From Chitinophagaceae bacterium (GTDB lineage: Bacteria > Bacteroidota > Bacteroidia > Chitinophagales > Chitinophagaceae): a stretch of 59,266 nt of DNA. Location of the stretch: positions 1-59,266 of the forward strand of contig SCVJ01000005.1 of the NCBI GenBank assembly GCA_004322425.1, written 5' to 3'. Within the stretch, counting starts at the first letter, position 1, and the number at the start of each line of letters is the position of its first letter. The translations under genes and the position numbers were made by a program. The notes under the pieces were generated by a model. The model saw only the letters and a program-made list of their open reading frames with translations, was not told where the DNA came from and searched no databases. Positions 26,230 to 49,470 of the stretch are shown here, one piece after another.

Positions 26230-27345
26230 ATGAAGTTTATAGTTTCTTCCTCGGCTCTCTTAAAGCAACTACAGCATATTTCCGGAGTTATTAATAACAA
26301 CACGGTATTGCCAATTTTGGAAGATTTTTTGTTTGAAATTGAAAAGGGTCGCCTAAGTGTTGTGGCCACCGATCTTGAAACCGTTATGCGTGTTCAGCTA
26401 GATGTTGAAGCTAAAGAAAATGGACGCGTTTGTATTCCGGCAAAAATTTTATTGGATAGTTTAAAAAATCTTCCCGATCAACCACTCACTTTTAATATTG
26501 AAAAGGGATTTGGTATTGAAATTACGAGCGACAATGGAAAATATAAAGTGCCTGGCGAAAACCCGGAAAATTTTCCAAAAGAACCACAGCCCGATGACAC
26601 CACTTCTTTTACCGCTTCATCGTTGGCTTTGTTGACCGCAATCAATAAAACGCTTTTTGCGGTTAGTAGCGATGACCTGCGTCCAGCTATGACTGGTGTG
26701 TTTTTTGAGTTAGATAAAAAGGGGCTTCAGCTTGTTGCTACCGATGCGCATAGATTAGTTCGATATAAAAGAAAAGATGTGAGCTGCCCTAAAAGCGATT
26801 CTTTTATTGTTCCCAGAAAACCTCTTTCATTACTAAAGTCGGCATTGCCAATAAATGAAGACGAAATAACAATTAGCTATAACAGCAATCATTTTTTTGT
26901 TAAACACAAAAACACACAATTAAGCTGTCGATTAATTGATGCCCGCTTTCCTGATTATAAAGTTGTAATTCCTTCTGATAACCCCTATAAGCTGATTGTT
27001 AATAAGGCAGAGTTTCAGGGTGCGCTTCGCCGTGTAAGCATCTTTAGTAATAAAAGTACAAATCAAGTGGCGCTTGCTATTTCCGGTAGCAATCTAGAAA
27101 TTACCGGACAAGATTTAGATTTTAATTTTGAAGGCGATGAGCGGTTAGCTTGTCGTTATGATGGTGAAGATTTAACGATTGCCTTTAATGCAAAATTTTT
27201 AATCGAGGTTCTTTCTGCCGCCGATGGCGACGAGGTAAAGCTGGAGCTTTCTACGCCTACAAAAGCGGGAATTATTAAACCCGTGGAGCAAACAGAAAAA
27301 GAAGAGCTGATGATGCTAGTAATGCCGCTGATGCTTAATCAATAA
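26230..27345 (+). CDS. dnaN: DNA polymerase III beta sliding clamp
   Basis: A 371-residue sliding clamp, the ring that tethers DNA polymerase III to template. It contains three clamp domains (about residues 1-120, 130-245 and 250-371) with 'GVINNNTVLPILEDFLFE', 'LATDAHRLVRYKR'-like VATDAHRLVRYK, 'VPRKPLSLL', 'LSCRLIDARFPDY' and the C-terminal 'VMPLML' that lines the hydrophobic partner pocket. It is not next to dnaA or recF, unlike in many phyla. It heads a plus-strand run with DUF2007, a hydroxylase and a glycosyltransferase. Confidence 0.97.
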   Translation: MKFIVSSSALLKQLQHISGVINNNTVLPILEDFLFEIEKGRLSVVATDLETVMRVQLDVEAKENGRVCIPAKILLDSLKNLPDQPLTFNIEKGFGIEITSDNGKYKVPGENPENFPKEPQPDDTTSFTASSLALLTAINKTLFAVSSDDLRPAMTGVFFELDKKGLQLVATDAHRLVRYKRKDVSCPKSDSFIVPRKPLSLLKSALPINEDEITISYNSNHFFVKHKNTQLSCRLIDARFPDYKVVIPSDNPYKLIVNKAEFQGALRRVSIFSNKSTNQVALAISGSNLEITGQDLDFNFEGDERLACRYDGEDLTIAFNAKFLIEVLSAADGDEVKLELSTPTKAGIIKPVEQTEKEELMMLVMPLMLNQ

Positions 27346-30083: not shown

Positions 30084-31094
30084 TTATAGGCCTGCTTTTT
30101 TACTAATTTCTAACATTTTTATTATTGGATTTTTGGCCTTTTTTATTGTTTCTTCATCCATAATAATTTCTGGTGCTTCATATTTCATACATAGATAAAG
30201 TTTTTCTAAAGAATTTAATTTCATGTGTGGGCAATTATTGCAGGCACAATTATTTTCTGGTGGTGCTGGAATAAATTTTTTGTTTGGATTATTTTTTTCC
30301 ATCTGATGAATAATCCCCGCTTCTGTAACGATGATATATTCTAACGCTTCGTCTGTTTTTGTAAAATTTAAAAGTCCGCTAGTAGATCCAATAAAATCAG
30401 TAATTCTTAAAACAGCATCTTCACATTCTGGGTGTGCTATAACTTTTGCTTGTTTGTGTTTTTCTTTAAGTTTTAGTATTTTTTCGAGACTGAATTGTTC
30501 GTGAACAATACAAGAACCATTCCATAAAACCATTTCTCTTTTGGTGATTTTATTCATGTACGCACCAAGGTTTTTATCGGGAGCAAAAATAATTTTTTGC
30601 TCCTTTGGAAAGCTTTCAATAATTGCTTTAGCATTACTACTGGTGCAAATTACATCTGAAAGTTTTTTTATTTCTGCGCTGCAATTTATGTAGCTGATTA
30701 CGATATGATCTGGGTGTTTGTTTATAAATTTTTTAAACAAATCTGGAGGGCATCCTTCGCTTAAAGAACAACCAGCGTGTAAATCTGGTAGTAATACTTT
30801 TTTATTTGGATTTAAAATTTTTGCAGTCTCTGCCATAAAATGAACTCCGGCAAAAACAATAATCTCTGCTTGTGTTTTTTCTGCTATTTGCGCTAATTTA
30901 AGGCTGTCGCCGATATAATCAGCAACGTCTTGAATGTCGGGTTCTTGGTAGTAATGTGCTAAAATAACTGCTTTTTTTTCTTTCTTTAGTTTTTCGATTT
31001 CTAAAAAAAGATCCATAGTTGGACTAACTTCTAAATCAAGAAATCCTTTTTTTAAAATATTATTTTGAGCTTCCTGTAGAATTATTTCTTGCAT
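30084..31094 (-). CDS. nadA: Quinolinate synthase A
   Basis: A 336-residue NadA with a 4Fe-4S cluster, which condenses iminoaspartate with dihydroxyacetone phosphate to give quinolinate in de novo NAD synthesis. Visible: '[21 protein letters not shown]' with the conserved His-Tyr-Tyr, '[18 protein letters not shown]' with a cluster Cys, '[16 protein letters not shown]', 'GSCIVHE', 'VIAHPECED' and the C-terminal '[18 protein letters not shown]' with the last cluster Cys. The ATG at 31094 is chosen over one at 31118 as the conserved part starts there. It faces the candidate origin region. nadB and nadC are not in the window; nadD is at 48.1-48.7 kb. Confidence 0.96.
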
Positions 31095-31225
31095 AAAAAA
31101 CTTTTTCAGAGGGCACAAGATAGAAAAAGAAAAATTATTTTTTTATCTTCTTTTGTTAAATCGCAATACTATAATAAGTATATAATACTATATTATTTAA
31201 AAATAAAACCTATTACTATTAGGGC

Positions 31226-31526
31226 TGTTAATTTGTGGAAAAAGAAGATTATTTTTTAAGAACCAAAACTTTAAGTGCAATAATTAACAGAAAAGATAAG
31301 GTAATTAACAAACTAAAATCAATAGGACGAAAGAAAAAGAGTAGAAATTAACAAGATTGTTAATAACCAAAAGAGAGAATGTGAATAATATAAACAGAAC
31401 AAGTGGAACGAAAAAAATGTGAGTAAAATAATATGGGAAAACAAAAAAGCAAAAAACGGCAATAAGAAAAATTATTAAAAGAATTAACCAAGGTGTTCGC
31501 CAACGTTTCACACATACTAATTAACA
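31226..31526. repeat. Repeated octamer AATTAACA (five copies)
   Basis: Exact copies at 31282-31289, 31303-31310, 31346-31353 and 31519-31526, and one inverted copy at 31226-31233; near copies at 31481-31488. They are interleaved with the DnaA-box matches. Repeated short motifs of this type can be iterons or protein binding sites; in A/T-rich DNA some chance copies are expected, but five in 300 bases is more than composition alone should give. Confidence 0.5.
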
Positions 31527-31623
31527 AAATAAAAAATCTACCCACATGGTTTGTGAATAAAAAAGATCACAAACTGTCTAACCAATAAAACAAGTGATGG
31601 CAAAGGAAAAGCATAAAATATCC

Positions 31624-31631
31624 TATTTTTG
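31624..31631 (+). promoter_or_regulatory. Bacteroidota -7 element for the ppiD-like gene
   Basis: TATTTTTG on the plus strand, 29 bases before the ATG at 31661; exact TAnnTTTG match. Confidence 0.5.
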
Positions 31632-31660
31632 CCCTCCTTAAATTAAAGAGTAAAAATAAT

Positions 31661-33820
31661 ATGTCTGTAATTCAAAAAATAAGAGAAAAATACGCAAAAT
31701 GGGCTGTAGTTGCTATTGCTTTAGCTTTAGTGGGTTTTATATTAACAGACTATTTGTCTACGCAAGGAAAAACATCCGGTGCCGGCGAAACGGTTTTGGG
31801 TAAAATCAACGGAGTTGAAGTTGATTTTATAAGCTTCGAAACCAAGGTTAAAGCACAGGAAGAACAAATGGCCGCCCAAGGACAAGAGGTTGGAGAAGCT
31901 GGTAGACAGCGTATTCTTGAAGGAATATGGGACCAAGAAATAGGCCAAGTAATAATGAATGAAGAGTTTGATAAACTTTCTTTAGAAATTGGCAAAAAAG
32001 AAATAAACGATATTTTGTTTGGGGCCAATCCGCCACAAGACTTAAAACAAAGGTTTTCTAACGAGCAAGGCAAATATGATGCGGCATCGGCGCAGAGTGC
32101 AATTAACCAAATGAAAAAGAGCACAAAGAAGGGAGAAAAAGAGCAGCTAAATAATTATATCATCAGTCTTGAGCAGAACAGAAAAATGGAAAAATATAAT
32201 GCGCTTCTTACCAACTCCATTTATCAGCCCAAGTGGCGCATCGAAAAACAAAATACAGAAAACAGTCTGGTTGCTAAAGTTTCTTATGTTTCTTATCCCT
32301 ACGCTAAAATCGCCGACAGTACAATAAAAATTTCTGACGAGGAAATAAATGATTACGTTGAAAAAAACAAAGACCAATATAAGCAAGAGGAAAACAGGTC
32401 AATTGCCTATGTAATGTTTAATGCCGCGCCTACAACAGCTGATAGCGGCGCTATAATCAATCAGCTTTCGGCATTAAAGAATGAGTTTTTGGTATCAAGC
32501 GACGTTACCTCTTTTATGGCCCGCTATGGCAGCGCACAACAATTTTATGACGGCTACAATGGGAGGTCACAAATCCTTGTTCCAAACAAAGACAACATTT
32601 TAGGATTGGCAACAAACGACGTTTATGGGCCATACCTCGACCAGGCCTCATTTGTTTTAGCAAAAATGATTGATTCAAAAAATCTTCCCGACTCTGTTAA
32701 AGCAAGACATATTCTAATTCAAACAACAAACCCACAACAGGGGCAAAAGCTTTTAGAAGACAGCACGGCTAAAAAAAGAATTGATAGCATTGCTTTGGCA
32801 ATTAAAGGCGGCGCAAGCTTTAACGAGTTGGCTATAAAGTTTTCTGACGACAAAGGAAGTGGAGTGGTTGGCGGTTTATTGTCTAATCCACAAAATCCAC
32901 AAACAAATTACTTCAACATCGGTCAGATGGTGAAAGAGTTTAATGATTTTTGTTTTGAGGGAAAAGCCGGAGAAAAGCAAATTGTTAAAACAGCATTCGG
33001 TTATCATCTGGTTGAAATATTGGATCAGAAAAATTTTCAACCCCACTTTAAAATTGCTTATTTTTCTAAACAAATTGTTGCCAGCGATGAAACCCACCGC
33101 TTGGCCAGTAACGCCGCAAGTAGATTTGCAAGCGATAGCCGCAACCAAAAAACATTTGAGGAGAACTTTGAAAAAACACTTAAGCCGCAAGGAGCCCAAA
33201 AGTTTTTTTCTACCAATATTAAACCCAACGATTATTTAGTGGAAGGAGTAAACGCCTATGGCGCATCTCGACAATTAGTAAGAGAAATTTATAAAGCAAA
33301 AAAGGGGGATGTTTTACAACCACAGCTAATTGGCAATAAATACATTGTAGCAATAGTTACAGAAACTTATGATAAAGGAACTCAAGAAGCGGCAATGGCG
33401 AGAGTTGGAGTTGAGCCAGTGTTGAGAAATAAAAAGAAAGCAGAACAAATTATTAAAAACGCAGGATTGCTTTCTGGAATTGAAGCGGCGGCGACGAAGT
33501 TTGAAGATTCAATAAAAATAGTTGAGGAAATAAAATTTTCTGGAAACTCTGCACTGGGTTTCGAGCCAAAAGTTGTAGGCGCTATATTTAATACGCAAAA
33601 CAGCGGCAAGTTTATAGGTGAAGCAATTATTGGCGTAGCCGGAGTTTATGTTGTTTCGATAAATTCTGTATCCACAATACCCAATGCTGTTGCAAATATT
33701 GAAGAGCAGCGTTTTGTATATCAGCAGCAAGCAAAACAAATGGCGGGATATTATAATCAACCCATACAAATACTAAAGAAAAAGGCGAAGATTGTAGACA
33801 ACAGAAAAAATTTCTATTAA
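31661..33820 (+). CDS. PpiD/SurA-like peptidyl-prolyl isomerase, membrane-anchored
   Basis: A 719-residue periplasmic foldase. Residues about 10-33 form one membrane anchor ('KWAVVAIALALVGFILTDYL'), followed by a SurA-type N-terminal chaperone domain ('LGKINGVEVDFISFETKVKA'), a linker, and a parvulin rotamase domain at about residues 345-455 ('VKARHILIQT', 'LAIKFSDDKGSGVVGGLLSN', 'FGYHLVEILDQ'). The C-terminal part resembles a second, degenerate parvulin-like domain. PpiD assists folding of outer-membrane and secreted proteins at the translocon. Large members like this are universal in Bacteroidota. It is followed 58 bases later by the DUF2480 gene. Confidence 0.93.
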   Translation: MSVIQKIREKYAKWAVVAIALALVGFILTDYLSTQGKTSGAGETVLGKINGVEVDFISFETKVKAQEEQMAAQGQEVGEAGRQRILEGIWDQEIGQVIMNEEFDKLSLEIGKKEINDILFGANPPQDLKQRFSNEQGKYDAASAQSAINQMKKSTKKGEKEQLNNYIISLEQNRKMEKYNALLTNSIYQPKWRIEKQNTENSLVAKVSYVSYPYAKIADSTIKISDEEINDYVEKNKDQYKQEENRSIAYVMFNAAPTTADSGAIINQLSALKNEFLVSSDVTSFMARYGSAQQFYDGYNGRSQILVPNKDNILGLATNDVYGPYLDQASFVLAKMIDSKNLPDSVKARHILIQTTNPQQGQKLLEDSTAKKRIDSIALAIKGGASFNELAIKFSDDKGSGVVGGLLSNPQNPQTNYFNIGQMVKEFNDFCFEGKAGEKQIVKTAFGYHLVEILDQKNFQPHFKIAYFSKQIVASDETHRLASNAASRFASDSRNQKTFEENFEKTLKPQGAQKFFSTNIKPNDYLVEGVNAYGASRQLVREIYKAKKGDVLQPQLIGNKYIVAIVTETYDKGTQEAAMARVGVEPVLRNKKKAEQIIKNAGLLSGIEAAATKFEDSIKIVEEIKFSGNSALGFEPKVVGAIFNTQNSGKFIGEAIIGVAGVYVVSINSVSTIPNAVANIEEQRFVYQQQAKQMAGYYNQPIQILKKKAKIVDNRKNFY

Positions 33821-49454: not shown

Positions 49455-49470
49455 TGTTTCACGTGAAATA
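49455..49470. promoter_or_regulatory. parS site (ParB centromere-like sequence)
   Basis: TGTTTCACGTGAAATA matches the widely conserved parS consensus TGTTTCACGTGAAACA at 15 of 16 bases, with a perfect 12-base palindromic core TTTCACGTGAAA. It lies in the ybeY-mnmG intergenic region. ParB binds this site, spreads and loads SMC, so it marks the origin region of the chromosome. Direct sequence match is strong; that this strain's ParB uses it is inference. Confidence 0.8.

Follow-up and report, generated by a model that had tools for sequence, protein, structure and literature searches.

Comparative analysis showed that the gap between nadA and a ppiD-like gene is most probably the chromosomal replication origin (oriC) of Chitinophagaceae bacterium, at a probability of roughly 0.94 as judged from sequence. 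A candidate origin had been proposed here in an earlier note on this DNA, and the proposal was supported by three lines of evidence: the layout and conservation of an unwinding module in the gap, the position of the strand-skew switch in three of four relatives, and the persistence of the module in its place in most of the checked cases in which a neighbouring gene had moved or was not found. The window, meaning the whole stretch of DNA that was analysed (59,266 nucleotides), is one entire contig (C100) of a draft genome of 318 contigs and 2.24 Mb. Comparison of its NadA placed the closest named relatives in Chitinophagales and Chitinophagaceae. The main parts of the locus are as follows:

31119 to 31660, no strand: candidate oriC between the divergent nadA and ppiD-like genes, 542 b, GC 0.25
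30084 to 31118, minus strand: nadA (quinolinate synthase, PF02445), with the candidate oriC element 5' of it
31661 to 33820, plus strand: ppiD-like peptidyl-prolyl isomerase gene (SurA_N/PPIC protein, PF13616 and PF13623)
49455 to 49470, plus strand: parS-like site TGTTTCACGTGAAATA, 1 mismatch, about 18 kb from the gap

The gap, described earlier as free of genes, exactly fills the space between the NadA gene on the minus strand and the gene of the SurA_N/PPIC protein on the plus strand. The dnaN gene (26230-27345), which had been put 5 kb away, lies 3.8 kb from its end to the gap. A pair of parS sites had also been reported; scored against what we take to be the parS consensus, the site at 49455 was good and at about the distance given, while the second (49431) had 3 mismatches. 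Sites with up to 2 mismatches were expected 0.24 times by chance, and at least one match occurred in 23 of 100 shuffles; the site at 49455 fits an origin-proximal region. Within the gap, positions 31502-31513 (AACGTTTCACAC) are identical in the window and in the sibling genome G005 and resemble half a parS site. AT skew changed sign at the gap and GC skew went from -0.043 to +0.012 there, a weak change in the expected direction that the divergent gene orientation alone could produce.

The DnaA boxes and repeated octamers of the gap are listed below:

31234 to 31242, minus strand: box 1, the first DnaA box of the unwinding module, TTTTCCACA, an exact match to TTWTNCACA and 1 mismatch from TTATCCACA
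31380 to 31388, minus strand: exact DnaA box TTATTCACA, a TTWTNCACA match
31552 to 31560, minus strand: exact DnaA box TTATTCACA; G005 has a box at almost this position
31358 to 31366, minus strand: one-mismatch DnaA box TTATTAACA, which includes ATTAACA
31282 to 31289, 31303 to 31310, 31346 to 31353 and 31519 to 31526, plus strand: octamer AATTAACA
31226 to 31233, minus strand: octamer AATTAACA, within the second box of the module

The gap contained exactly three exact TTWTNCACA boxes, each of them on the minus strand, in agreement with the earlier claim of three in one orientation, while the one-mismatch boxes numbered four (31358, 31418 and 31420 on the minus strand and 31506 on the plus strand) and not two. 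The expectation of far fewer than one exact box also held, with a mean of 0.10 boxes in shuffles of the gap and at least three in 2 of 20000 of them. The window as a whole contained 9 exact boxes against 11.5 expected, so that only their clustering is unusual; for the whole genome the count was 280, with the reversed pattern giving 251. On whether boxes are equally dense elsewhere, which the earlier note had raised against its own proposal, the result was divided: among the 270 of the 280 boxes with listed positions, the gap held the only triplet within 542 b (one further triplet was present within 1000 b), but an equally tight triplet arose somewhere in 384 of 2000 trials when 280 boxes were scattered randomly over 2.24 Mb. 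Box density alone was rejected as proof of an origin on this ground, and the case for an origin therefore rests on comparison. The repeated octamer was present as had been described, with 5 copies of AATTAACA in the gap, a count that none of 2000 shuffles attained, and 10 in the whole window. The form ATTAACAG was present in 20 of 41 gaps, compared with 1.6 expected.

The gap was searched for an unwinding module of the Bacillus subtilis type (BUS). According to PMC8287927, a BUS has a box with at most 2 mismatches, a spacer of at most 16 b, and at least three trios with a middle A on the opposite strand. In Helicobacter pylori oriC2, trios read 5'-CTA-3' on the box strand, and since reversed trio polarity blocks unwinding, orientation matters (PMC8235120); the trio orientation used in the search follows that source. 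At least three NTA triplets were required, which is narrower than the NAN rule given in the available text of PMC8287927. An exact pattern, TTWTCCACA-N12-TAATAGTAATAG, matched only 2 of 59 genomes (the source genome and G005) and was rejected as too strict, and the published mismatch rule was therefore adopted. Besides box 1, the module in the gap consists of:

31226 to 31234, minus strand: weak second DnaA box AAATTAACA, 4 mismatches, sharing one base with box 1
31223 to 31225, minus strand: GC-rich spacer GCC (gcc, ccc or gct in most aligned elements)
31211 to 31222, minus strand: DnaA-trio-like repeat CTA-ATA-GTA-ATA (plus strand 3'-GAT TAT CAT TAT-5')
31164 to 31209, no strand: A/T-rich stretch adjoining the trios, GC 0.11

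Read along the minus strand, the order is TTTTCCACA, the overlapping AAATTAACA, GCC, CTA-ATA-GTA-ATA and the adjoining A/T-rich stretch. Results of the search showed TTTTCCACA followed by a box-to-trio spacer of 11 and four trios, with AAATTAACA passing the 4-mismatch filter for a tandem box in the window, and the module was found once in the 59-kb window, in the gap. The features expected of an oriC were also present, namely a box cluster in non-coding DNA and an A/T-rich region adjoining the boxes. The A/T-rich stretch is the probable first melting region; it had been described as pure A/T at 31167-31207, where 3 of the 41 bases are G or C, the longest pure run being 31189-31208 (20 b). With the weak AAATTAACA as second box in the window, the repeated octamer is partly a degenerate DnaA box. 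In aligned relatives the second box is mostly WATYCACA and usually nearer the consensus than AAATTAACA, and the box at 31234-31242 is conserved in position and form. Only the first of the window's four trios reads 3'-GAT-5', and the first base varies in relatives. Single-strand folding of 31140-31260 gave nothing above shuffles (z -0.56).

The divergent arrangement of nadA, gap and ppiD recurs in relatives, with gaps of 431-943 b. A total of 42 nadA-ppiD gaps, the window included, were compared, with one duplicate pair (L021 and its repeat L101); among the loci, L042 also repeats G008 (L186). At least one exact box was present in 38 of the 42 gaps, at least two in 32, and none in 4. The BUS was found in 36 of 42 gaps against 1.7 expected from shuffles, and the best matches of all 36 lay on the nadA coding strand (the L054 match had a different spacing). 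No module was found by the NTA rule in the other six (L024, L034, L036, L039, L055 and L087), and one of these, L087 (Chitinophaga E66 chromosome), lacks it although its skew agrees with the nadA gap. Alignment showed one layout in 34 of 41 gaps and in 12 of 12 further loci: TTATCCAC-x-AATTCACA comes first, then a triplet that is mostly GC-rich, then NTAATARTAATA and finally T- and A-rich sequence, the spacing being demanded by the filter itself.

The density of exact boxes was compared between the 900 b upstream of nadA and the rest of the same loci. Groups were assigned from titles, and three loci titled 'Bacteroidetes bacterium' (L036, L055 and L070) were counted as Chitinophagaceae on account of their ppiD gene. 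In 28 Chitinophagaceae loci the boxes were 12.7 times denser upstream of nadA (2.78 vs 0.22 per kb), and in 20 Sphingobacteriales loci 9.4 times denser (1.78 vs 0.19 per kb). The 11 other Bacteroidota loci gave 0.95 vs 0.15 per kb, 16 Saprospiraceae loci gave equal density upstream and elsewhere (0.14; a 17th had too little upstream sequence), and 4 loci outside the phylum had zero exact boxes. The reversed-pattern control gave 4 matches upstream and 32 elsewhere in Chitinophagaceae (0.16 vs 0.11 per kb) and 7 vs 26 in Sphingobacteriales (0.39 vs 0.12 per kb), so that part of the box excess in Sphingobacteriales may be due to composition. Of the 28 Chitinophagaceae regions upstream of nadA, 23 carried the BUS itself against 1.2 expected; among these 23, L053 has it on the opposite strand and L054 with another spacing. 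The Chitinophagaceae form was not above chance in Sphingobacteriales (1 of 20 vs 1.1 expected), where the sole match, L067, has the Chitinophagaceae layout, nor in Saprospiraceae (0 of 16) or other Bacteroidota (1 of 11). A separate element, ACACACTA, was observed in 10 of the 20 Sphingobacteriales nadA upstream regions (L046-L105) against 0.4 expected, and maybe represents a different unwinding core in that group.

A 19-base consensus pattern, WTYCACANNNVTAATARTA, was run on 147 family genomes, source genome included, in 132 of which nadA was located. The pattern gave 84 sites in 77 genomes and zero in 70, G005 among them. A large proportion of the sites (62 of 84, in 62 genomes) lay by nadA, the distance to the 5' end of its match running from -5 to 166 b with a median of 60, and 60 of these 62 were on the nadA strand; the remaining 22 were elsewhere. 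The modules of the window and of G005 have differing second boxes and were therefore missed, while two unrelated sites were found in the source genome, so that the pattern is far from catching every module. The same 19-base match was observed far from nadA in two genomes of one genus (G006:C11:63433-63451 and G129:C17:3097-3115), in which nadA or the origin may have moved.

Genomes without an adjacent ppiD bear on which neighbour anchors the element. Their ppiD is either at a distance of about 3 to 105 kb or on a separate contig, and 9 of the 10 nadA loci examined from them carry the module upstream of nadA. The ppiD gene is about 28 kb away in G027 and 105 kb away in G023, and the module and boxes stay by nadA; the regions upstream of nadA there (L185 and L188) contain 4 exact boxes in G027 and 7 in G023. 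A Peptidase S46 gene (PF10459) is inserted between ppiD and nadA in L033, L042 and L090, and the boxes and module are on the nadA side. The reading of ppiD as sole anchor was rejected, as the element usually stays by nadA where ppiD is not adjacent. No nadA was found in G022 (completeness 96%), and its module lies 385 b upstream of ppiD (C37, L032:3934 onward). The module thus kept its place in most of the checked cases in which a neighbouring gene had moved or was not found, the exception being G006, where it was absent at nadA (L187) and at ppiD (L030).

These rearrangements bear on the alternative that the gap is a regulatory region of nadA and/or ppiD, bound by DnaA or another factor, and no origin. 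Such a role would suit an element present a short distance upstream of nadA in 62 genomes, and in many relatives the upstream part of a promoter-like ATTTG...TATTTTTGCC is directly adjoined by TTTTCCACA or TTATCCACA, located at about -57 to -89 relative to ppiD. The element follows neither gene strictly, however, remaining by nadA with ppiD about 28 or 105 kb off and by ppiD in G022, which argues against a simple operator; trios with an adjoining A/T-rich stretch are not operator features, and the skew switch follows the element in three of four chromosomes. The regulatory alternative was accordingly rated very improbable. Just upstream of ppiD in the window, TATTTTTGCC is present at 31624-31633 and is conserved in relatives; it resembles the Bacteroidota promoter element.

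Strand skew, which the earlier note had named as a check, was examined in relatives using 20-kb stretches sampled from four complete genomes and one incomplete genome (G026). With roughly even samples, the best origin interval of the coarse fit included the nadA gap in G027 (R2 0.87), G059 (R2 0.73) and G023 (R2 0.78). Denser sampling placed the best fit at 640000 for nadA at 640084 in G027, at 5615000 for 5617383 in G059 and at 2385000 for 2375545 in G023, distances of 0.1, 2.4 and 9.5 kb, respectively, although the added samples were denser near the candidate and kb-level precision is somewhat favoured by this design. The incomplete G026 contig had negative skew before 0.60 Mb and positive skew from 0.64 Mb, with nadA at 0.6346 Mb. 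The check thus showed the minus-to-plus switch at the nadA gap in three of the four complete chromosomes and failed in G009, where the best interval, with an R2 of 0.42, was 2.8-3.06 Mb; the fit at its nadA gap (3.71 Mb) reached only 0.15. GC skew in G009 (L016) is weak and irregular, though boxes and module sit at its nadA gap; a rearrangement, a misassembly or another origin are the explanations offered.

The resolution of the skew fits is no better than about 5-10 kb, a distance at which the gap could be a DnaA-titration or secondary DnaA-binding locus near, and not at, the true origin, and clustered DnaA boxes alone would suit a titration locus. Boxes combined with correctly oriented trios and an A/T stretch at fixed spacing form an unwinding core, however, and no second module was found in the 59-kb window, which left titration or secondary binding very improbable.

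An origin beside dnaA, as in many bacteria, with an incidental box cluster in the gap, was also considered. The dnaA gene is the usual oriC indicator gene (PMC10225481, accessible portion), and two boxes lie near dnaA in the source genome. That gene is on another contig than the gap, and in the four relatives dnaA and the nadA gap are 0.78 to 1.94 Mb apart by the shorter way round. When the coarse skew fit was placed at dnaA, its sign was wrong in three of the four relatives, and R2 was 0.19 in the remaining one. None of six dnaA loci scanned (the source genome's own and five relatives') had more than two exact boxes, and the trio module was absent at four of the five relatives' dnaA loci, the match in L115 (G005) having other spacing. 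An origin beside dnaA was rejected on the skew and on these box and module scans, its probability being close to nil. The earlier suggestion that the origin is not beside dnaA agrees with these results, with dnaA far off and the relatives' skew favouring the nadA gap in three of four.

The nadA-gap element was compared with known systems as described in the accessible portions of the sources. It shares with the Bacillus subtilis type of BUS oriC (PMC8287927, PMC10721633) the order of box, second box, GC-rich spacer, trios and A/T-rich sequence and the conserved middle A of the trios on the opposite strand, and its box-to-trio spacer of 11 is within the published peak of 10-13. Unlike in BUS oriC, the Chitinophagaceae boxes overlap by one base (an 8-nt step, 34 of 41 aligned gaps), most trios read 3'-NAT-5', their first base being variable and the canonical 3'-GAT-5' standing only first in the window, and the module is not beside dnaA. 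Helicobacter pylori oriC2 (PMC8235120) shares the 5'-CTA-3' trios on the box strand and differs in box consensus and in its bipartite layout. Origins predicted by Ori-Finder/DoriC (PMC10225481) rest on the same kind of evidence (skew, indicator genes and box clusters), and the word Bacteroid is absent from the main text of that paper. The literature search, which covered titles and abstract openings, returned no paper linking nadA to oriC.

By analogy with the B. subtilis system (PMC8287927, PMC10721633, accessible portions), DnaA binding, melting, helicase loading and origin use would be expected in the source organism. DnaA would bind the boxes of the gap, including the pair at 31226-31242, from which a filament would extend onto the plus-strand trios at 31211-31222 and open the A/T-rich sequence at 31164-31209, towards nadA. 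Helicase loading would follow, and then two forks, one through nadA and dnaN and the other through ppiD. Further boxes, at 31380 and 31552, may help to build, regulate or time the complex, possibly together with the ATTAACA sites.

On the sequence evidence, the gap appears to be a DnaA-dependent oriC of an ordinary kind whose core is a BUS, while its location, conserved and distant from dnaA, is unusual. A further, joint proposal is tentative and is put at somewhat under even odds: that Chitinophagaceae have a core of their own, with boxes overlapping by one base, a GC-rich spacer fixed at 3 bases and trios of the form NTA, that its anchoring at nadA is as old as the family and perhaps extends, in another form, to Sphingobacteriales, and that the ATTAACA octamers are a second, weak class of DnaA site, one of which replaces the second box in this species. 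The 19-base pattern beside nadA, there in 62 of 147 genomes, gives Chitinophagaceae an oriC marker that can be used on draft genomes, and such a marker is useful where dnaA is far from the origin, as in the four Chitinophagaceae chromosomes checked. The family also provides a natural comparative set for which parts of an unwinding core are fixed and which are variable.
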